Positions 1 to 38,990 of a stretch of DNA of 38,990 nucleotides are shown here, piece by piece. How positions within the stretch are numbered: position 1 is the first letter of the stretch; every line of letters begins with the position of its first letter. The position numbers were made by a program, and so were the translations under genes. Below the pieces are notes generated by a model. It searched no databases. It had not been told where the DNA came from and saw only the letters and a program-made list of their open reading frames with translations. The stretch comes from Bacteroidota bacterium (lineage in GTDB: Bacteria; Bacteroidota; Ignavibacteria; Kapaibacteriales; UBA2268): the NCBI GenBank assembly GCA_021824625.1, contig JAKAKE010000068.1, positions 1 through 38,990 on the forward strand, read 5' to 3'.

Positions 1-457
1 CATCCGCGGTTCGGCAAAAGTAGACTACATCGGCGATTCGGCAAAAGTAGACTACATCGGCGATTCGGCAAAAGTAGACTACATCGGCGATTCGGCAAAA
101 GTAGACTACATCGGCGATTCGGCAAAAGTAGACTACATCGGCGATTCGGCAAGTGTGAACTACATCCGCGGTTCGGCAAGTGTGAACTACATCCGCGGTT
201 CGGCAAAAGTAGACTACATCCGCGGTTCGGCAAGTGTGAACTACATCGGCGATTCGGCAAAAGTAGACTACATCGGCGATTCGGCAAAAGTAGACTACAT
301 CGGCGATTCGGCAAATATTTTGGGTTATTATAATTTTGATATTTCAAATATCAAAAACATTCAAGATAACGCCTTAGTCATTAATAAAAATAAAGATGCT
401 ATAAAAATTATAACATCAAAAGGCATCATTGAAAATATATATGATTTAATCAAATAG
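1..457 (+). CDS. C-terminal part of a 9-residue-repeat protein (open at the left edge)
   Basis: The frame is open from base 2, and an in-frame GTG at 155 is only an internal codon of the array. Eleven full 27-bp units (2-298) and a partial one encode I-[RG/GD]-SA-[KVD/SVN]-Y. A unique tail follows (about 317-457, ending IYDLIK). Period and composition suggest a beta-solenoid built from short repeats. The gene at 38474-38990 has a unique N-terminal domain followed by the same repeat in the same frame logic, so I infer one gene broken at the contig ends. Joining the ends directly would lose the frame: four bases (plus any multiple of 27) are missing. The stop lies 9 bases before the SSB-like gene, which has its own AGGAGG site. 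Function unknown. Confidence 0.8.
   Translation, partial: IRGSAKVDYIGDSAKVDYIGDSAKVDYIGDSAKVDYIGDSAKVDYIGDSASVNYIRGSASVNYIRGSAKVDYIRGSASVNYIGDSAKVDYIGDSAKVDYIGDSANILGYYNFDISNIKNIQDNALVINKNKDAIKIITSKGIIENIYDLIK
2..316 (+). repeat. 27-bp coding minisatellite, left block
   Basis: Eleven tandem 27-bp units plus a partial one. Units are almost identical at base level and differ only at two cassettes: CGCGGT/GGCGAT and AAAGTAGAC/AGTGTGAAC. The same array reappears at 38807-38990, where a third form, GGCGGT, also occurs. Such purity implies recent unit duplication or gene conversion. Confidence 0.95.
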
Positions 458-466
458 GAGGTAATT

Positions 467-988
467 ATGTCATTAGATTTAGAAGTAAAAGAAGAGGCGC
501 TTTTAACAGGCGAATCAAAGGCTGTTTGTTCACATGTTTACGATCTGGGAATTCAGGTTAGTACTTTCAACGGAAAAGATATTGAACAGCATAAAATCAT
601 GATCATGTTTGAATTGGAAAAACGAAGTAAGGAAACAAACAGAAGATTTCTTGTTAGCAAAGAATATACGCTTTCCAGTTCAAAACGGTCAAATCTCATG
701 AAAGATCTGGAATCATGGCGCGGAAAACCGTATGCAGTCGGCGATAAAATCGATGTTACAAAACTCATCGGAATCAATGCCAACCTTACAATCTCAGAGA
801 ATGATAAAGGGTTTCCTCTCATCGATAAAATTCTACCGCCAACCGGTGAAACTTTAAAAGCAGAAGTCAAAAGCGACTTTATGCCAGATTGGGTTTGGAA
901 AAAGATCCAACAGGGAAAATTTGAGAATCAAAATCATCTTAACCCATGGGCTGAAGAACAGAAAAACGATGATAAACCACCGTTTTAA
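467..988 (+). CDS. Probable phage single-stranded DNA-binding protein
   Basis: 173 residues, start preceded by AGGAGG at good spacing. The C-terminus is acidic and ends DDKPPF, like the DDDIPF tail that SSB proteins use to recruit partners. The body is a likely beta-rich fold. It resembles the phage replication protein family sometimes labelled NGO0469-like. It sits directly downstream of a RecA-like (Sak4-type) ATPase and the repeat gene and just upstream of Gp157, a typical recombination/replication block. SSB is inferred from the tail motif and neighbours, not from a recognised OB-fold motif. Confidence 0.6.
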   Translation: MSLDLEVKEEALLTGESKAVCSHVYDLGIQVSTFNGKDIEQHKIMIMFELEKRSKETNRRFLVSKEYTLSSSKRSNLMKDLESWRGKPYAVGDKIDVTKLIGINANLTISENDKGFPLIDKILPPTGETLKAEVKSDFMPDWVWKKIQQGKFENQNHLNPWAEEQKNDDKPPF

Positions 989-1006: not shown

Positions 1007-1504
1007 ATGCAGCTCTACAATATTGATAAGATGCTTGAGGATCTCTTTGACGAAATGGACAAATATGCTGAGGAACATGAAGGCATAGTTGATCAATCTT
1101 ATGTCGAACTTCTTGATATGCTCAATATGGCAAAAGATGAAAAGATTCTTAACATCGCAAAATATATGAAAGGACTTGACGTTGAAATAAAAGCCTTTCA
1201 GGAAGAGATCAAAAAACTTCAAGCAAGAAAATCAGCAATTGATAATAAATACGATTATCTTCACAATTATATTTGCAATCATGCTGATAAAGGTAAAAAA
1301 ATCCAGGACTCAACAACTGTTGTTTCATGGCGAAAAAGTGAACAGGTTGTTGTTGTTGATGATGTTGATGGATTACCGGAAATTTTTGTAAGAACCAAAA
1401 CCGTCAAAGAACCTGACAAGCAATTGATAAAAGAATCTTTCAAAATGGGAAATGAAGTTCCAGGGGCAAAGATCGTTGAAAACATGAATCTACAGATAAA
1501 ATAG
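1007..1504 (+). CDS. Siphovirus Gp157-family protein
   Basis: 165 residues with an AAGGAGGAA ribosome site. The order of parts matches the Gp157 family: a short acidic N-terminus, a central coiled coil (IKAFQEEIKKLQARKSAID), then a beta-rich C-terminal domain with a VVVDDVDGLPEIFV core and the closing EVPGA segment. Gp157 has been linked to phage resistance in Streptococcus thermophilus; its biochemical role is unsettled. It usually sits among SSB, recombinase and nuclease genes, as here. A strong terminator follows at 1517-1565. Confidence 0.8.
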   Translation: MQLYNIDKMLEDLFDEMDKYAEEHEGIVDQSYVELLDMLNMAKDEKILNIAKYMKGLDVEIKAFQEEIKKLQARKSAIDNKYDYLHNYICNHADKGKKIQDSTTVVSWRKSEQVVVVDDVDGLPEIFVRTKTVKEPDKQLIKESFKMGNEVPGAKIVENMNLQIK

Positions 1505-4228: not shown

Positions 4229-4715
4229 AGCATCAACGTTTTATGAAAAAAAACTTGAAAAAGTCATGGAGCGTTTTAATATAACAAAAGATGATTATCT
4301 TTATAATTGGGATCGCTTTGGATGCTGGGTGCAGTTCAAATATAAGGGTGAAATGTATCGTTTTGATCATAGTGTCGAGAATGCAAAACAGCATGGCCAT
4401 GAAATCAATTATGGATCTGACTCTTTTGCTCAATTGATTCTTGCCCTTGAGGATCTGGCCCGGATTGCAGAACGCGGAATTTATGATATACAAAAATGGA
4501 TTGTTGGAATGAGATATCTCCCCGCTCCGGATTTACCATCGTTTTTCCGTGCTTTAGGATTTTCTGAAATGCCTACCATTGAAGATGTAAAAAAGAAATA
4601 TAAAATGTTGGCCCGTAAACTTCATCCGGATGCAGGAGGAACATCAGAAGATTTCAACACTTTACAAAATGCTTATGAAAAATGTTTAGGTTATCTAAGT
4701 GAAAAGAATGAATAA
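4212..4715 (+). CDS. J-domain (DnaJ-like) protein
   Basis: 167 residues. An unrecognised N-terminal region (1-105) is followed by a C-terminal J domain (about 108-165) with the essential HPD at 138-140 (KLHPDAGG) and a preceding basic helix KKKYKMLARK. J domains stimulate the ATPase of host DnaK. No Gly/Phe or zinc region is present, so the N-terminus probably supplies the target. Phage J proteins can redirect Hsp70 to replication complexes. It overlaps the transglycosylase gene by 17 bases and has a GGAGGAAAAAC ribosome site. Confidence 0.85.
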   Translation: MSKTYKASTFYEKKLEKVMERFNITKDDYLYNWDRFGCWVQFKYKGEMYRFDHSVENAKQHGHEINYGSDSFAQLILALEDLARIAERGIYDIQKWIVGMRYLPAPDLPSFFRALGFSEMPTIEDVKKKYKMLARKLHPDAGGTSEDFNTLQNAYEKCLGYLSEKNE

Positions 4716-7350: not shown

Positions 7351-8409
7351 ATGGAAATACGACTATTGTCGCTTTTTAAGCGGTCTGACAGGAGATACTA
7401 TACTGCGGAATATGAATTAAATCAACAAAAACATTCAGTAAGTCTCAAAACAGACAATGAAAAAGAAGCCTGGGAAAGATGGCATAAGATTGCAAGATTC
7501 TATGATGAAGACAATATCTTAGTTGTAAAAAAAATCAATCTCGATCTTGCATTGAATGAATTTATTTTATCACGTGATAAAACAATTCAGGAAAGTACAA
7601 AGGTCTCAGATAAATATCGAATAAATTTTTTCAGAAATTATTTTAAAAAAAATAATATTATTGACACAAGTCAACTTGATGAATCATTTATAGATAATTT
7701 TTTCTCGAATCTTAACAATAAGGATTTATCCAATAAAACAATAAATAATTATGTAACGGTATTGAATATGTTCTTTAAGTTTTGTGAAGAAAAAAAATAT
7801 ATCCGGATTATATTTAATCTAAAAAAGTTCTGGAAGAAAAGAAAAAAAGAAAAGATAAAAATAATCGATATAAAAGAAGCCCGATTTATTATTGAAAAGA
7901 TAAAAGAAATTCAAAATATAAAAATTAAAACATTTCTACTTTTCCCGTTTTTCACCGGATTACGGCATTCGGAAGTCAGAGGATTGAATCGGAAAAACAT
8001 TGATTTTAAAAATAGAATTATCTCGGTTTGCGAAAAAATGACGGTTGGAAATAAAAAGCCAATATCATTATTGAAGTCAAAAGCAGCGTATCGCAAGGTT
8101 CCTATAATGAAGGAATTCGAAGTGTATCTTAAAGAATACCTGGACTTTAATAAAAACGAATATCCTTTTATCTCAATGTCAAACGATGCTACAATGTGGC
8201 ATATCAGCAAACTGAATAAAGATCATAAAACTGCTTATAACTTTCATCAAGGAAGGCACTTTTTTGCATCGCTTTTAATCGATAATAAATTCAGTATGAA
8301 AGAAATACAAACCATTCTCGGACACGAAAATATTTCAACTACCCTTGATACTTACGGGCATCTTATCCGGGAATGGGATATTAAAAAGTTCGATGATATT
8401 GATTTTTAA
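7351..8409 (+). CDS. int: Tyrosine recombinase integrase
   Basis: 352 residues. An N-terminal arm-binding region (1-60) is followed by a core-binding SAM-like domain (about 65-155) and a catalytic domain (170-345). Catalytic residues visible: R205 (TGLRHSEVRG), H299-R302 (FHQGRHF), H325 (LGHENISTT) and nucleophile Y335 (LDTYGHL). No ribosome site precedes the ATG, and the promoter places transcription start at the codon, so the message is effectively leaderless. It integrates and probably excises the phage at attP 7116-7308. It converges with the tail genes. Confidence 0.93.
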   Translation: MEIRLLSLFKRSDRRYYTAEYELNQQKHSVSLKTDNEKEAWERWHKIARFYDEDNILVVKKINLDLALNEFILSRDKTIQESTKVSDKYRINFFRNYFKKNNIIDTSQLDESFIDNFFSNLNNKDLSNKTINNYVTVLNMFFKFCEEKKYIRIIFNLKKFWKKRKKEKIKIIDIKEARFIIEKIKEIQNIKIKTFLLFPFFTGLRHSEVRGLNRKNIDFKNRIISVCEKMTVGNKKPISLLKSKAAYRKVPIMKEFEVYLKEYLDFNKNEYPFISMSNDATMWHISKLNKDHKTAYNFHQGRHFFASLLIDNKFSMKEIQTILGHENISTTLDTYGHLIREWDIKKFDDIDF

Positions 8410-23859: not shown

Positions 23860-25878
23860 TTATACCGCTATCCAGACGCATCGACAGCGATTACCGCCTT
23901 TATGTCCTTCGCATTCATCATTGATACCGTAACCGCCCTTATCAAGGCTCAGGCCTTCAACACCGTTTTTTATCTCTGTTATCGTATATTCAAGGCCGTC
24001 CTTCCCGGCGCATACATCACAAAGATTTTTATCAAGAATTGCCGAATAGACAAACGCCAGTTCAGGCATATCCTCGGCGACAAGTTCCATCTGAGTATTT
24101 CGCCCGGCATTATAGGAAGACTCGACAATTTGTTCAAGATCGGAGCGGTCCCGTTTGAAAAATGTTTCATAATGCAGTATAAACTGTAGTGATCCTCGAT
24201 CTGTGATTTTATTGCCGAGCCTGTCTATATCCTCTTCAACTTTATATTTCAGTTTTTCATAGAGGTTATCGATTTTCTTATTTATTTGTTTGTCGTATTT
24301 GACAACCGTTTTTGTCTCAAACTCATATTTTTCAAGTTTTGTTTCTTTTTTTACTTTCCCGATTTCTTTCAGCATATCCTTCTTGCCCCGGTCAAATCCT
24401 TCACCGTATAGAACTTTCAAAGCGTGTATGTATTCGGCATGATACGGGATATTTATTTCAGTCTTGCCTTCCTCGATTTGCGAATAAATCGATTCCAGAA
24501 CCTTTTTATACATGTCATTGACAAGTTTTGAGGCCTTCTCAGCCATTGTTTCATAATGTTCAACGGCGCTTGATAACTCAAAGTTTTTTGTTTTTCCAGA
24601 TTGAACTGAAAATAACTGCTTCTTTAAGTCACCTTCATCATCCGCTTTCTTTTCATCATCCTTTTTTTGTATCTCTGTAAGGTCTATTGTTGGCATTCCG
24701 AACAGAGACCTCAACCACACCTGATCTTCAGGTGTAAAGTTCAATATATTTGCCATTTTTTGCATATTTGCGGACACAGCATCAAGGTCAGCTGATGTAT
24801 AATTTATCTTAACCTGCGGATACTCATCATCCTGAAATCGTCCTGCATAAGGCGACATTTCAATAATTTCTTTGATCAGTTGATTGTCATTATCCTCGAT
24901 CTCTTTTTTAGCGGCCTGAATTGACAACTCGTAAATGGTTTTAACGGTTTTTGATGCCGCAAAAGAGCCGGAAGAATTCACGCCAATAGTCGTAAACTGT
25001 GATGATGTCAAAAAAAGCATCTGTTTATCACAATACTCAAGCATCGGAGGAATATTCCCAAGCATTGTAATCTGTTCCAGGGTTATCTCGTAAATACCTT
25101 CCTGACTTGACATATAGACATTGTCTTCAATGGTTATATTTCTTGCCATTGTTTCGATTTTCTTTTTAATAGTATCATCGATTGTTTTTTTATATTTAAC
25201 ATGTGGGATAAATCCGCCTTTGACCGCCGATTTTCCGAAACCTGTTATCAATTTATCTTTGAGAAGATAAAATTTTCTTGCCGGCCGTAAGATCGGAGAT
25301 CCGTTCGGGTTTTCGAATTCCGAATTGTATGAATATAACCATAAATTATCTATTTCAATATCCACGTAAGACGATGATTTGTTCGGAATATTTTTAATGT
25401 GTTGAACTCCGGACAATTCAATTCCCTTATAGTTCCACATATTCACTGTATCCGGTTGGATCGGTGAAAGTTTACCGTATATCGTTGTCGGTTTTCCGTT
25501 ATAATCTGTTGATTCCTTAACTTTTTCAAAGAGCGCAAAACCATAGTCAAGCGCAAGTAGTTTGTGCCGCTTATAGTTTTGATAGTTGACTTTTTCCAGC
25601 CACCATGACAGGTAATCGATTACTTCCTGGTCTTTTTCTTTCATGTCAATGCGATAATCCGCTAAAACAAGCGGCATTTTCATAATACGGAGGCTGGATG
25701 CTGCAATACAATCACCGTTTCTCATCCGGGTAATATCCTGAATAAGCGTCTCGGTAGAAAGATCATCATAACTGCTTTGACGGATTTTACCGCCTGATAC
25801 CATTATTCCGGGCGCGCTTTTTTGAGAATCTGTTTGAGTATTTGTGTTTTTAGCATACAGTCTTTGTTTTCTTGACAA
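23860..25878 (-). CDS. Portal protein fused to a MuF-like domain
   Basis: 672 residues. Residues 1-450 match the Mu gp29-like portal (DUF935): QSSYDDLSTETLIQDITRMR, LDYGFALFEKV, SPILRPARKFYLLKDKLITGFGKSAVKGG and TIGVNSSGSFAASKTV. A charged linker is followed by a C-terminal region (about 540-672) with the MuF head-morphogenesis signature: AYSAILDKNLCDVCAGKDGLEY-type Cys pair and closing GGNRCRCVW. In Mu these are two genes (29 and 30); here one chain. The fusion gives the portal its own interior MuF domain. Confidence 0.85.
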   Translation of the reverse strand: MSRKQRLYAKNTNTQTDSQKSAPGIMVSGGKIRQSSYDDLSTETLIQDITRMRNGDCIAASSLRIMKMPLVLADYRIDMKEKDQEVIDYLSWWLEKVNYQNYKRHKLLALDYGFALFEKVKESTDYNGKPTTIYGKLSPIQPDTVNMWNYKGIELSGVQHIKNIPNKSSSYVDIEIDNLWLYSYNSEFENPNGSPILRPARKFYLLKDKLITGFGKSAVKGGFIPHVKYKKTIDDTIKKKIETMARNITIEDNVYMSSQEGIYEITLEQITMLGNIPPMLEYCDKQMLFLTSSQFTTIGVNSSGSFAASKTVKTIYELSIQAAKKEIEDNDNQLIKEIIEMSPYAGRFQDDEYPQVKINYTSADLDAVSANMQKMANILNFTPEDQVWLRSLFGMPTIDLTEIQKKDDEKKADDEGDLKKQLFSVQSGKTKNFELSSAVEHYETMAEKASKLVNDMYKKVLESIYSQIEEGKTEINIPYHAEYIHALKVLYGEGFDRGKKDMLKEIGKVKKETKLEKYEFETKTVVKYDKQINKKIDNLYEKLKYKVEEDIDRLGNKITDRGSLQFILHYETFFKRDRSDLEQIVESSYNAGRNTQMELVAEDMPELAFVYSAILDKNLCDVCAGKDGLEYTITEIKNGVEGLSLDKGGYGINDECEGHKGGNRCRCVWIAV

Positions 25879-26331: not shown

Positions 26332-26531
26332 CCCTTTACTTCCTGTAATTTCCTTCGTTCTTTCTTACTCATTCTAATTTTTCGCTCTTTGCGGATCATC
26401 TGCCCGTTTTTAAGAATAAGCATATCAGCCGTTTTGCCGATATATTTATACTTAATTCCGCAATGAGGACATTTAAGAAGGCGGGTTCCTTCCGGTACCG
26501 CGATCTCATGTTTGCATTTTTCGCATTTCAT
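26328..26531 (-). CDS. Zinc-ribbon protein (Com-like)
   Basis: 67 residues. CEKC (3-6) and CPHCG (21-25) form a zinc ribbon; a basic tail follows (RKERKIRMSKKERRKLQ). Size and layout resemble the Mu Com family of RNA-binding zinc fingers, also seen near terminase genes in Mu-like phages. There is no mom-like modification gene in the window, so the target would differ. Overlaps the large terminase stop by four bases. Confidence 0.6.
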   Translation of the reverse strand: MKCEKCKHEIAVPEGTRLLKCPHCGIKYKYIGKTADMLILKNGQMIRKERKIRMSKKERRKLQEVKG

Positions 26532-27826
26532 ACAATAAACCCCTTATATTCAAACTCATCTTCATAATCATCTTCAATAACCTTGCCGGATGGAATAGAA
26601 GACATTGCCGTGTTCATATCGGTGAGTTCTTCAATTGCATACCTGCAAGCGGCAATTCCGTCATCTTTAAATGATACAGGCTCATCCAAAGGATTCCCTT
26701 CTTTATCTTCCTTCCACTTAAAAGAACCTACTTCATTTGCAAGTCCTGGGCATTTACTTGGATCTATTATCCAGGTACCGCGGTTTAAAAACCCTATCTG
26801 TGTTTTAACACTGTCTTTCCCTTTAACCGCGCCTGTTACATCATACCCGGCATTTGACCACTCTTTGATTGACTTCGGTTCTGCCGAATCTGCCGTACAA
26901 GGTTGTTGTTTTAATAAAACCTGCTTTTCTTCATTTGCTGCAATGATTTCATTATTTGTCATATACCTGACATACAATTCAGCAAATGAATACTTTACTC
27001 CGTCCTTTATGCCTATCAGTTCGATCGCATGATAATGATTGTATCCAAAATCCATACCAGCATAAACATGATCAAAATCCCAATATCCGTACGGGCAAGT
27101 ATCGAACTTAACATTTCGAAAAACAAGATTTCCAATAGATCCCCAATTCCCCAAAGCGTATATTTCGTAATATACTTTATCCTGAAATTCGAGTTGTTCA
27201 AGTTCCTGTCTATATTCTTTATCAATGAACCTGTTATCAAGATAAGTCGATTCGTGGATTATTGCCCGGTCACGCTTTCCGCCGACATTATCAAAAAAAA
27301 CTTTCTTCAACCAATGAGTATCCGATACGGGATTAAACATCATTGTCATCTGAAAAGGCTGTTTTGCCTGCCCTCTCAAGCGCAAATTAAGACCCATGAA
27401 ATCTTTTTCAGTGGCCTCTGTTGCTTCCTCGATTATTATATCTGTCAAAGGTCCGTTATCAAATGTTATGGACTTAACTTTTTCTATGTCGTCAAGCCCT
27501 ATAAACTTCATCTGATTACCAGTTGCCAGGCTGGTAATTGTCTGGTTAGATTTGTTTTCTTTAAAAACAGGCCATAAGTTCCAATCCGATATACAGGCAC
27601 GCATGAGCGGTATAGTAGAAATTGAGTTTGTCACTCCATATTTTCTACATACCAAATAATTATGGCCTTTTTCTGCGGTCATCCTGTATGTTGCACATCG
27701 AAATGTATCAACGGATTTCCCGGATCCTGCTCCGCCTTTTTTTATTACAAATCTATGTCTATCAAACCAAAGCGGATAAAACTTTTTATTTACCCATTCC
27801 GGCAATGTTGAAAAATCAATATTCAT
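26528..27826 (-). CDS. Terminase large subunit (PBSX/Terminase_3 type)
   Basis: 432 residues. N-terminal packaging ATPase: Walker A GGAGSGKS (31-38), Walker B DIIIEEATE, coupling motif near MMFNPVS. C-terminal RNase H-like nuclease: AGMDFGYNHYHA (first catalytic Asp), CTADSAEPKSI (second), and DDGIAACRYAI (third). It powers DNA packaging and cuts concatemers. The ATG overlaps the small subunit's TGA. Confidence 0.92.
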   Translation of the reverse strand: MNIDFSTLPEWVNKKFYPLWFDRHRFVIKKGGAGSGKSVDTFRCATYRMTAEKGHNYLVCRKYGVTNSISTIPLMRACISDWNLWPVFKENKSNQTITSLATGNQMKFIGLDDIEKVKSITFDNGPLTDIIIEEATEATEKDFMGLNLRLRGQAKQPFQMTMMFNPVSDTHWLKKVFFDNVGGKRDRAIIHESTYLDNRFIDKEYRQELEQLEFQDKVYYEIYALGNWGSIGNLVFRNVKFDTCPYGYWDFDHVYAGMDFGYNHYHAIELIGIKDGVKYSFAELYVRYMTNNEIIAANEEKQVLLKQQPCTADSAEPKSIKEWSNAGYDVTGAVKGKDSVKTQIGFLNRGTWIIDPSKCPGLANEVGSFKWKEDKEGNPLDEPVSFKDDGIAACRYAIEELTDMNTAMSSIPSGKVIEDDYEDEFEYKGFIV

Positions 27827-33734: not shown

Positions 33735-34427
33735 ATGGAATGGAACGATAAAATTGAGACAATAATGCGTGTATGTAAATTAAAACAAAAAGAATTAGCT
33801 GAAATTATCTCCGTTTCACAAGGATATTTAAGCGATATTTTAAATAGCAGATCAAAAAATCCAACTTTTTCTTTTATGTATAATTTAGTTGAAAAATTAA
33901 AAATAAGTCCAGATTGGCTTTTAACCGGCGAGGGATCTATGTTCAAAAATCAGGAAATCTATCTCCAGAAGGATCAGCGCATTATTATTGCTGATACCAA
34001 TATTGAAAGCGATGTTGTTTTGATTTATGGAGGAACTAATAAAGCCTCTGCAGGTACCGGACAGGAATTATTGAATAATTCTTCCGAAAAAGCGATTCCG
34101 ATGCTTGAAAAGTTCATTTTACCGTTTAAAGGGCGGGAAGCCGGCTGGGTGGAAGTAGTCGGGGATTCCATGGTAAATGAAAAGCTGTTTGACGGCGATA
34201 TCGTTATTTATATCAAGGGCCTTATCCGAAATGACGGCATTTATGTCATCCAGTATGCCAATGAAGTTATGGTAAAACGCCTGGAATTCGATCCTATCGA
34301 TAAAAAGATTTATATAAAATCAGCAAATGAAAAGTATGCTTACCGGGATAAAATTGTAAATGCCAATGATGAAAACCTTGTTATTTTGGGAAAAGTCAAA
34401 GCCTGGGCACATCAGCATCCGTATTGA
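33735..34427 (+). CDS. CI/LexA-type phage repressor
   Basis: 230 residues, AGGA seven bases before the ATG. N-terminal helix-turn-helix (about 14-60: LKQKELAEIISVSQGYLSDILN). Linker 70-135 includes SAGTG with the probable Ala106-Gly107 cleavage bond. C-terminal S24 peptidase: nucleophile S145 (VVGDSMVNEKLFDGDIV) and general base K181 (EVMVKRL). It should bind operators at PL and PR, hold the prophage silent, and self-cleave in the host SOS response. AntA (6288-7118) is a likely antagonist. It converges on the small gene at 34433 with only five bases between. Confidence 0.9.
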   Translation: MEWNDKIETIMRVCKLKQKELAEIISVSQGYLSDILNSRSKNPTFSFMYNLVEKLKISPDWLLTGEGSMFKNQEIYLQKDQRIIIADTNIESDVVLIYGGTNKASAGTGQELLNNSSEKAIPMLEKFILPFKGREAGWVEVVGDSMVNEKLFDGDIVIYIKGLIRNDGIYVIQYANEVMVKRLEFDPIDKKIYIKSANEKYAYRDKIVNANDENLVILGKVKAWAHQHPY

Positions 34428-35870: not shown

Positions 35871-36020
35871 ATGTCAGGTTGTTATGGTGGATCAACAGAA
35901 GATCGGTATTTTGAACGAATTCTCAATGATTATCTTGATGAAGATGATGACGACGGCCTGGAACATGTTTCTGATGAAGATGAATCATCAATGTCCTATT
36001 TGACAGAGAAATTTTTATAG
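35871..36020 (+). CDS. Small acidic leader protein (49 residues)
   Basis: MSGCYGGSTEDRYFERILN... then DEDDDDG and a Ser/Asp-rich end, strongly acidic. First gene from PR, leader AGGACA similar to the repressor's. It ends in TAG (36018-36020), which overlaps the 5' end of the tRNA. Small DNA-mimic or inhibitor proteins have such composition; I only infer that. No family assigned. Confidence 0.6.
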   Translation: MSGCYGGSTEDRYFERILNDYLDEDDDDGLEHVSDEDESSMSYLTEKFL

Positions 36021-36090
36021 CGGGATAGTGTACTGGTAACACACCGGGCTCATAACCCGGAACATGCCGGTCCGAATCCGGCTCCCGCGA
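36019..36090 (+). tRNA. tRNA-Met (CAU), initiator-like, somewhat degenerate
   Basis: Cloverleaf: acceptor GCGGGA/TCCCGC (6 bp) with A1-G72 unpaired, D-stem GTGT/ACAC, anticodon stem CCGGG/CCCGG with loop CTCATAA (anticodon CAU), T-stem GCCGG/CCGGC with loop TCCGAAT. Three G-C pairs at the anticodon stem base and the open 1-72 pair are initiator features; a pyrimidine-purine 11-24 pair is not. T-loop position 55 is C instead of U. No encoded CCA. Could be a functional tRNA-fMet variant or a decaying or regulatory tRNA-like element. Confidence 0.65.
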
Positions 36091-36110
36091 ATCCGGCTCC
36101 CGCGAATCCG
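36075..36110 (+). repeat. Tandem duplication of the tRNA 3' end
   Basis: AATCCGGCTCCCGCG occurs at 36075-36089 (inside the tRNA) and again at 36090-36104, followed by AATCCG. The second copy is identical. Confidence 0.9.
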
Positions 36111-37310: not shown

Positions 37311-38474
37311 ATGAGTGGATTTAAGAAAGCGACAAAAAAACAAGCAAAATTAAGGTTAGCGGTTTTCGGACCGTCAGGATCAGGAAAAACCTTTTCAGCA
37401 CTCAGGATTGCTAAAGGAATGAATGGGAAAACAGCCGTGATTGATTCAGAACGTGGATCCGCATCAAAGTATTCTGACAGGTTTGATTTTGATGTTTTAG
37501 AACTTCAACCATGTAATATTGATAATCTGGTAAAAGGAATCGGTGATGCTGAGGAAGCTGAATATAATATTCTGATTATAGACTCGTTAACCCATGCATG
37601 GCAGGAACTTCTCGAAGAGATAGATAAACTGGCTAATGCAAAATATAAGGGCAATTCGTGGGGTGCCTGGAATGAAGGTACACCAAAGCAAAAAAAACTT
37701 GTTAATGCCATTTTGAATTATAACGGGCATATAATTGCCACTATGAGATCTAAGACGGAATGGACTATTGAACAGACACAAAGTGGGAAAACAAAGCCGG
37801 TTCGTGTTGGCCTTGCGCCTGAACAGGGAAAAGGCATAGAATATGAATTCGATATGCTTATGGAAATCACTCCGGAGCATTTTGCAAATATCATTAAAGA
37901 CAGAACCGGAATGTTCCAGGATCAGATAATCGAAAAACCAGATGAAAAGTTCGGGAAAAAACTTGTTGAATGGCTTAATTCCGGCGAAAAAGTTGAGATT
38001 CAGGAACAGAAAAAACCAGAGTCAAAACTTAATCCAGGTCTTCAAATGTATGTCGATAGTTTGAAGTCGTATATGGACACCTTTGAACTTCCGGAAGCGG
38101 CTTATACCAATCTTGAAAAGGAAATAACCGAAGAAAAAATCACAGAAAAGCGGCTTGATGAATACAAGGCTCAATGCGAAAAGTTTCCACTTAAGGCCAA
38201 GTATATGGCTACAGAGGAAGAAATTCTTTTGTTTCTTCACGGTTTAACAGAGATCGATATATCCGGAAATCAGGAACTTCTTAATAAATCAATCAATCTA
38301 GAAAAATCAATGAAGATTTCAAAATCACTTTTACAAAACTTGATTGAAGAATCAAAAACCTGCCCGAAGAAAGTTCCGGCTAAGTTAGGCATTGATAGCA
38401 ATGAGAAGGCTCCAGAATTCGGCTTTGAGGCAAAAGAAGTTGAAGATAAGAGTTTACCGAAGGGGGTGTTATAA
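37311..38474 (+). CDS. RecA-like ATPase (Sak4-type single-strand annealing/recombination protein)
   Basis: 387 residues from the ATG at 37311 (GGAGGA upstream; an earlier in-frame ATG at 37197 lies in the previous gene). Walker A GPSGSGKT (20-27), AVIDSERGSASKY, and Walker B YNILIIDSLTHAW. The C-terminal quarter is a helical extension. Matches phage AAA_24-type ATPases such as Sak4, which work with SSB in phage recombination; an SSB-like gene lies just across the contig junction. The stop overlaps the repeat-gene ATG (TAATG). Confidence 0.8.
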   Translation: MSGFKKATKKQAKLRLAVFGPSGSGKTFSALRIAKGMNGKTAVIDSERGSASKYSDRFDFDVLELQPCNIDNLVKGIGDAEEAEYNILIIDSLTHAWQELLEEIDKLANAKYKGNSWGAWNEGTPKQKKLVNAILNYNGHIIATMRSKTEWTIEQTQSGKTKPVRVGLAPEQGKGIEYEFDMLMEITPEHFANIIKDRTGMFQDQIIEKPDEKFGKKLVEWLNSGEKVEIQEQKKPESKLNPGLQMYVDSLKSYMDTFELPEAAYTNLEKEITEEKITEKRLDEYKAQCEKFPLKAKYMATEEEILLFLHGLTEIDISGNQELLNKSINLEKSMKISKSLLQNLIEESKTCPKKVPAKLGIDSNEKAPEFGFEAKEVEDKSLPKGVL

Positions 38475-38990
38475 TGTGTAAATTTTTTAGCGCGATCATA
38501 ACAAAAGAAAATATTTATTTTGATTATGATCTGGATTCTCATGAAGACATAATAAAAAAATTCAATCTGGTTGAGGGTGAAATTCATCACGGCTTTAATT
38601 TTGTCAGAGTTGAATTAACCCCAAACGATGAAAATCTTTTCAATCATAATATGGATAATTGGTCATTGCATGTAGATCAAGATTATACTCCGGATTGGTT
38701 CAATCATGATCAAATAGAGGATGAAGTAAAAATTAAACTAAAAGAAGTGATTGAAAATCGTTTTGTTCTTGGAGAAATGAAAGAAATAAATCAAGGTAGA
38801 TGGTTTATCGGCGGTTCGGCAAGTGTGAACTACATCCGCGGTTCGGCAAAAGTAGACTCCATCGGCGGTTCGGCAAGTGTGAACTACATCGGCGATTCGG
38901 CAAAAGTAGACTACATCGGCGATTCGGCAAAAGTAGACTACATCCGCGGTTCGGCAAGTGTGAACTACATCGGCGGTTCGGCAAAAGTAG
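38474..38990 (+). CDS. N-terminal part of the 9-residue-repeat protein (open at the right edge)
   Basis: A unique N-terminal domain of 111 residues (MCKFFSAIITKENIYFDYDL..., ending EINQGRWF) is followed by six full repeat units and a 22-base partial one (38807-38990). Each unit is I-[GG/RG/GD]-SA-[SVN/KVD]-Y. The frame stays open to the last base. The N-terminal domain has a YTPDWF segment and an acidic helix; I recall related phage proteins in which this domain leads into similar repeats, but know no function. ATG overlaps the ATPase stop. Continuation is at bases 1-457 after a gap of four bases plus any number of 27-base units. Confidence 0.8.
   Translation, partial: MCKFFSAIITKENIYFDYDLDSHEDIIKKFNLVEGEIHHGFNFVRVELTPNDENLFNHNMDNWSLHVDQDYTPDWFNHDQIEDEVKIKLKEVIENRFVLGEMKEINQGRWFIGGSASVNYIRGSAKVDSIGGSASVNYIGDSAKVDYIGDSAKVDYIRGSASVNYIGGSAKV
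38807..38990 (+). repeat. 27-bp coding minisatellite, right block
   Basis: Six full 27-bp units plus a partial one, same sequence classes as at 2-316, with GGCGGT as an extra variant and one D-S exchange (38834-38860). Confidence 0.95.

Follow-up and report, generated by a model that had tools for sequence, protein, structure and literature searches.

What does it mean that a phage contig both begins and ends inside the same kind of tandem repeat? The question is raised by a 38,990-bp stretch of DNA (the window), which is the complete contig C21 (G000:C21:1-38990) of a 231-contig, 3.58-Mb genome of a Bacteroidota bacterium. A sequence-only reading of this DNA had taken the two ends, a unique domain plus repeats on the right and repeats plus a unique tail on the left, for halves of one hypervariable repeat gene, separated by a gap of ACTA plus a multiple of 27 bases. 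The contig ends almost certainly are one gene, and the map is probably circular. The more interesting result, and the one on which most of what follows turns, is the wider family to which the gene belongs: judged from sequence, it is an undescribed phage protein family with one common front part, here called the N-domain, and various highly variable back parts.

The repeat gene at the contig ends

The right end of the window holds an open reading frame (ORF; 38474-38989) that continues past the end of the contig. It encodes a 111-residue N-domain (38474..38806, + strand) and 6.8 units of a 27-bp repeat (38807..38990, +), that is, six full units and 22 bases of a seventh, truncated one. At the left end (1..310, +), the frame that starts at base 2 reads through 11 full units and the start of a last, diverging unit, in the same register as the right end, and then through a unique C-terminal tail and stop codon (311..457, +). 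Tandem Repeats Finder detects both half arrays, with a score of 490 for bases 1-315 and of up to 305 for bases 38807-38990. All 17 occurrences of the unit pattern in the 231 contigs are in C21, and the N-domain and the tail each match once in the genome. Thus, the ORFs, the half arrays and the single-copy flanks bear out the proposed arrangement of the two ends. Rather than one unit repeated throughout, the array contains six full unit types, intermingled, and a truncated one. Each unit encodes nine residues, I-[GR]-[GD]-S-A-[KS]-V-[DN]-Y; the variable positions are 2, 3, 6 and 8 of I-G-D-S-A-K-V-D-Y, and they occur as blocks in which RG, GG or GD is combined with KVD or SVN.

Relatives of the gene were collected as 71 loci in IMG/VR, found from an alignment of five N-domains by pattern search and tblastn, and as 25 GTDB loci, mostly in Clostridia, found by a genome scan with query A2; the scan with query A1 returned none. 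The repeat-type relatives include L117 and L131, prophages of Clostridium porci. One relative, the IMG/VR contig L002, combines in a single ORF an N-domain 68% identical to that of the window, some 2.6 repeats of 27 bp and a related tail. Because L002 carries the three parts in one ORF, the two window ends almost certainly belong to one gene, and the map is probably circular. In addition, MT835516.1, a linear record of 43 kb, has a related N-domain with repeats at one end and, on the same strand, repeats with a tail at the other. In IMG/VR, where the same split is seen, 15 of the 71 loci have a contig end no more than 500 bp downstream of the N-domain, and 3 have one no more than 500 bp upstream (binomial P 0.0075; the 15 include the near-identical pairs L048/L053, at 99.98%, and L075/L089, at 94%, and are not all independent). 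Four of these 15 open contigs (L036, L062, L086 and L089) carry the remainder of the gene at the opposite end, and the repeats there are of the same kind. Among the 25 GTDB loci, four have arrays that are likewise cut off by the contig end.

A different arrangement is that the ends belong to two different repeat genes, such as neighbouring paralogues, and that the contig is a linear fragment. One phage can indeed hold two such genes: in IMGVR_UViG_3300031111_000008, two copies (L029 and L030) lie about 7 kb apart, with the same N-terminal start and different arrays. Nevertheless, this arrangement is very improbable, given the single N-domain and single tail in the genome, a unit found on no other contig, the one ORF of L002, the recurrence of the split in five other contigs, and the recombination genes that flank the junction on one strand.

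The completion of the truncated unit requires ACTAC, whose C is base 1 of the window; what is missing is ACTA plus n x 27, a length that keeps the frame open. The arithmetic of the sequence-only reading is therefore right, and the register and frame fit it. Some observations tell against a circular map with a four-base gap. A search for an exact overlap between the contig ends found none, and there is no exact terminal repeat; an end overlap of 23 bp with one mismatch does exist, so that n = -1 is also possible. A tandem or concatemeric linear form would yield an identical contig. Finally, 11 of the 15 open contigs have no matching opposite end; most simply, these are fragments. On the other side, the frame, the register, the unique parts and the relatives, all compared at the level of sequence, fit joined ends, and we infer a circular molecule as well supported.

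Several narrower searches for kin were negative. Neither the 22-base unit pattern nor the tail alone has a match in IMG/VR, no kin of the N-domain was found in the other 53 of the family's 54 genomes, and the N-domain of L078 has no match among plasmids. A closer search around L044 returned L044, L052 and L031 again and nothing further.

The N-domain family and its back parts

The conserved positions of the N-domain are a Met-Cys start, S6, DSH, E47, P50, W63, DQD and P..W, and the window gene has the Met-Cys start, DSH, E, P, W, DQD and P..W that define this MCxF family. No Pfam, PHROG or NCBIfam model covers the domain, and in a search of an open-access library no title or abstract start describes it or its repeat-bearing relatives. 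What follows the N-domain differs among the 71 loci, whose back parts were classed by eye. In 43 loci there are repeats of 8-9 residues, some of them degenerate; in 19 there is a C-lectin-like (DUF6273) domain; in five there are leucine-rich-repeat (LRR)-like repeats; and in one there are MORN repeats (PF07661, E 3e-12). The remaining three loci (L048, L053 and L057) have no visible back part. The L057 protein ends after 46 residues and is either a broken gene or a sequencing error. The lectin-type ends match phrog_9958, and that of L039 also matches DUF6273, below its cut-off.

Lectin types and repeat types are not separate families. The N-domains of L039 (lectin type) and L078 (repeat type) are 56% identical. 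An N-domain tree was built from 63 rows, comprising 60 of the 71 loci, the window, L013 and L014; the 11 omitted loci were short, had no assigned back part, or were duplicate or identical. In this tree, the lectin types lie in a well-supported clade (100/97) that also holds 11 repeat-type rows. The window belongs to a supported group (99/82) made up of five repeat types, and the tree leaves many forks unresolved. It thus indicates that the same N-domain has carried different variable modules.

The class of back part may also go with the assembly breaks described above. All 15 open loci belong to the 52 non-lectin loci, and no lectin-type locus (0 of 19) is open, a comparison confounded by the greater length of the lectin-type contigs (medians 137 versus 35 kb). 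The repeat gene would repeatedly lead to circular phage maps being recorded as linear or incomplete, and assemblies from short reads will make its variation look smaller than it is.

The lectin branch bears the signatures of diversity-generating retroelements (DGRs). The records of 48 of the 71 loci were searched with the reverse transcriptase (RT) model PF00078 (RVT_1), which matches in 17 of the 19 lectin-type records and in none of the 29 non-lectin records. In 17 of the 19 lectin-type loci a template repeat (TR) is found some 500-600 bp downstream of the variable end, and by hand count 223 of 242 changes from TR to variable repeat are at a TR adenine, with most of the exceptions in L055. 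By these marks the lectin-type DUF6273 domain is a genuine DGR target. Cassettes of target, small gene, template repeat and RT are present in L039, L040, L043, L049, L054-L056, L059 and L060, and likewise in L073, L074, L076, L079, L081, L083, L084 and L088. These contigs are 37-201 kb long, and near-identical members differ chiefly in the variable end. The window gene has neither element: PF00078 has no match in C21, and the unit pattern is found solely in the array. The only RVT_1 match in the host genome (G000:C105:9108-9725) is inside an open frame of 943 residues; the RT frames in the relatives with a DGR are far smaller.

Array variation and a possible role for the protein

The earlier description of the gene as hypervariable holds both within and between phages. 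The IMG/VR contigs L044 and L052 are identical at 4340/4340 upstream and 3421/3421 downstream bases compared, and their arrays are identical save for an exact six-unit difference. Between units of one array, the nonsynonymous difference (pN) exceeds the synonymous difference (pS) in 29 of 38 arrays when edge units are trimmed (medians 0.144 versus 0.046; Wilcoxon P 0.0004), in 26 of 33 after near copies are removed, and in 31 of 41 in an untrimmed count that includes longer periods. In N-domain controls, pN exceeds pS in none of 20 comparisons, which share members (medians 0.050 versus 0.479). The array of L041, for example, has 19 units, a pS of 0.000 and a pN of 0.141; the arrays of L041, L066, L068, L045 and L044 differ almost solely at amino-acid sites.

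These comparisons bear on the idea that the array is a neutral spacer or stalk, in which slippage adds and removes repeats and the unit sequence is irrelevant. Tandem repeats are inherently unstable, L002 makes do with some 2.6 units, and the nine arrays without an excess of pN are as this idea would have it. A neutral spacer is nonetheless unlikely: five arrays vary almost only where the amino acid changes, the N-domain control is strongly purifying, and relatives hold a DGR-mutated lectin domain at the same position.

The arrays might instead be mutated by a retroelement that acts in trans and specifically at adenines, as happens in the relatives with a DGR. In favour of this, sister members are genuine DGR targets, and an A allele is present at 135 of 172 variable unit sites (0.785), with A/G pairs dominant. 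The A-containing share expected from codons is 0.56, and the N-domain control for amino-acid-changing sites reaches about 0.75, close to the observed share, so adenine-specific mutagenesis of the arrays is unsupported. Together with the lack of RVT_1 in the 29 non-lectin records and in C21, this makes a retroelement acting in trans highly unlikely.

AlphaFold2 models the window N-domain plus the right half array with a predicted local distance difference test score (pLDDT) of 91.4 and a predicted template modelling score (pTM) of 0.82, with a strand every nine residues. The closest viral model is A0A8S5PVB3 (E 1e-8), by inference a family member. In VIA-align the nearest neighbour of the solenoid part is MfpA (Z 7.8, root-mean-square deviation 2.3, 77 residues), and bactofilins reach Z 6.5; a Z below 8 may reflect merely a common solenoid arrangement. 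This list covers almost only the solenoid, and an N-domain profile has no match below E 0.19 among PDB sequences. The conserved Cys2 of the N-domain might be a catalytic nucleophile. The lectin-type model has low confidence in the variable region; its top VIA match is an IgA peptidase chain (Z 8.6, 150 residues, model 98-258).

MfpA, a pentapeptide-repeat protein, mimics DNA. By analogy, the modelled solenoid might mimic DNA or another polymer in the cell and inhibit a host enzyme, and both the rank of MfpA among structural neighbours and a gene position next to recombination genes are in line with this. The Z score may mean no more than shared architecture, however; Foldseek gives no match below E 0.001, and units reading I-G-D-S-A-K-V-D-Y and similar have no pentapeptide-repeat match in Pfam. 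A role as such a mimic would seem quite unlikely.

The surroundings of the gene are those of a phage. An integrase (7351..8409, +; phrog_1, E 5e-47), a CI-like repressor (33735..34427, +; phrog_4, E 6e-37), a terminase large subunit (26528..27826, -; phrog_3717, E 4e-64), a portal protein (23860..25878, -; phrog_113, E 3e-22), a Sak4-like ATPase and a Gam-like protein together mark the window, by gene content, as a temperate tailed phage or its prophage form. The Sak4-like recombination ATPase (37311..38474, +; phrog_1366, E 8e-87; phrog_124, Sak4-like, E 2e-11) is directly 5' of the repeat gene. Next on the 3' side comes a gene for a 173-residue protein (467..988, +) that has no match in PHROG or IMG/VR; tblastn finds distant relatives of it in five Caudoviricetes records, and one of these relatives is next but one to a gp157-like gene. 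The Gam-like end-protection protein follows (1007..1504, +; phrog_253, E 5e-31). Thus, the repeat gene sits among recombination genes of the same strand, away from the virion genes. In another repeat-type locus, L024, a Sak4-like gene is again just 5' of the repeat gene. These positions suggest that the protein acts early and outside the virion.

The repeat protein is most likely an early, hypervariable binding protein, and the explanation as a whole, which we regard as probable, runs as follows. The window would be the circular map of a temperate tailed phage, which the assembler opened within a single gene, in its tandem array. The product of this gene would consist of an N-terminal alpha/beta domain, a solenoid of at least 17 nine-residue rungs and a short tail. 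The array would gain and lose whole 27-bp units, most simply through recombination between units, and selection would keep a few residue positions per rung diverse, with silent sites nearly uniform. Expressed early, the protein would use its variable solenoid face to recognise a partner that changes quickly; a protein or surface molecule of the host or of a rival phage is the most plausible.

Certain results weigh against parts of this explanation. The difference between L044 and L052 may be an assembly collapse of one repeat block instead of a true indel. In nine of the 38 arrays pN is not above pS, and the excess in the window itself is slight (0.170 versus 0.142; 0.112 versus 0.070). Foldseek against the PDB finds no match below E 0.001 for either the window or the lectin-type model. 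Among 20 neighbour genes scanned in 10 repeat-type loci, few have an assigned function (Sak4-like, dUTPase, HNH-related, MazG-like pyrophosphatase and, on the other strand, amidase), so that early action rests on few cases.

A broader idea is more tentative, and we hold it to be possible but short of probable. The N-domain proteins may be a phage recognition family with interchangeable diversity generators, either a DGR-mutated lectin or recombining solenoid, LRR-like or MORN arrays, the latter as a retroelement-free route to fast evolution of binding specificity. The array units would serve as a small alphabet, with a few residues diversified, silent sites identical, and whole words changed by unit gain and loss; temperate phages would use such arrays against a fast-changing host or rival target. 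If so, phages diversify the back part of one protein family in two unrelated ways, by retroelement mutagenesis and by repeat-unit recombination under selection. This would offer a natural comparison for asking what variable proteins outside the virion bind, a matter that also concerns DGR targets outside tails.

Other features of the window concern integration. A tRNA-Met gene lies at 36018-36110, and its 3' end (CGAATCCGGCTCCCG) is repeated 2.5 times directly 3' of it, suggesting either an attachment site that has been used or a duplication of the tRNA end; there is no other copy in the genome at up to one mismatch. A search for a host attachment site found none; the integrase region has one 44-base, 84% match elsewhere. 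Megablast of 24.8 kb of the window against a phage collection gave no match, and PADLOC reported nothing for the seven proteins submitted.

Comparison with known systems

Several known proteins share one feature or another with the window gene. DUF7666-type phage proteins have a conserved N-terminus followed by short tandem repeats; the window protein has no significant match to them (E 0.4-0.6). Pentapeptide-repeat proteins are built of five-residue repeats of the A(D/N)LXX type, which form a right-handed quadrilateral solenoid. The window unit has nine residues and no such Pfam match. MfpA and the bactofilins resemble the predicted structure in being solenoids of short rungs, but their repeats differ in sequence and length, and neither a sequence relation nor a common N-domain is seen. 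E. coli TolA contains an intragenic variable number tandem repeat, whose repeat number, in the account given in PMC3477136, varies between close relatives, as in the window family. TolA is a cellular protein, whereas in the window family diversifying selection appears to act on the unit residues, and other variable modules can take the place of the array.

The nearest parallels are DGR targets. DUF6273 domains are described as such in passages on Faecalibacterium prophages (PMC11792537) and on tentaclin (PMC10743442), and 19 of the 71 relatives of the window gene bear a domain of this kind after the same N-domain. The window gene differs in having a repeat solenoid and no RVT_1 in its contig, and those passages do not mention this N-domain or its repeat-bearing relatives. 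In the Quimbyviridae, a non-structural DGR target in a defence island has been proposed to play a role in phage-host conflict (PMC8008677). As described in the relevant part of that paper, it has a lectin fold and a DGR only, with no repeat arrays reported, unlike the window gene; both are hypervariable and encoded away from the virion genes.
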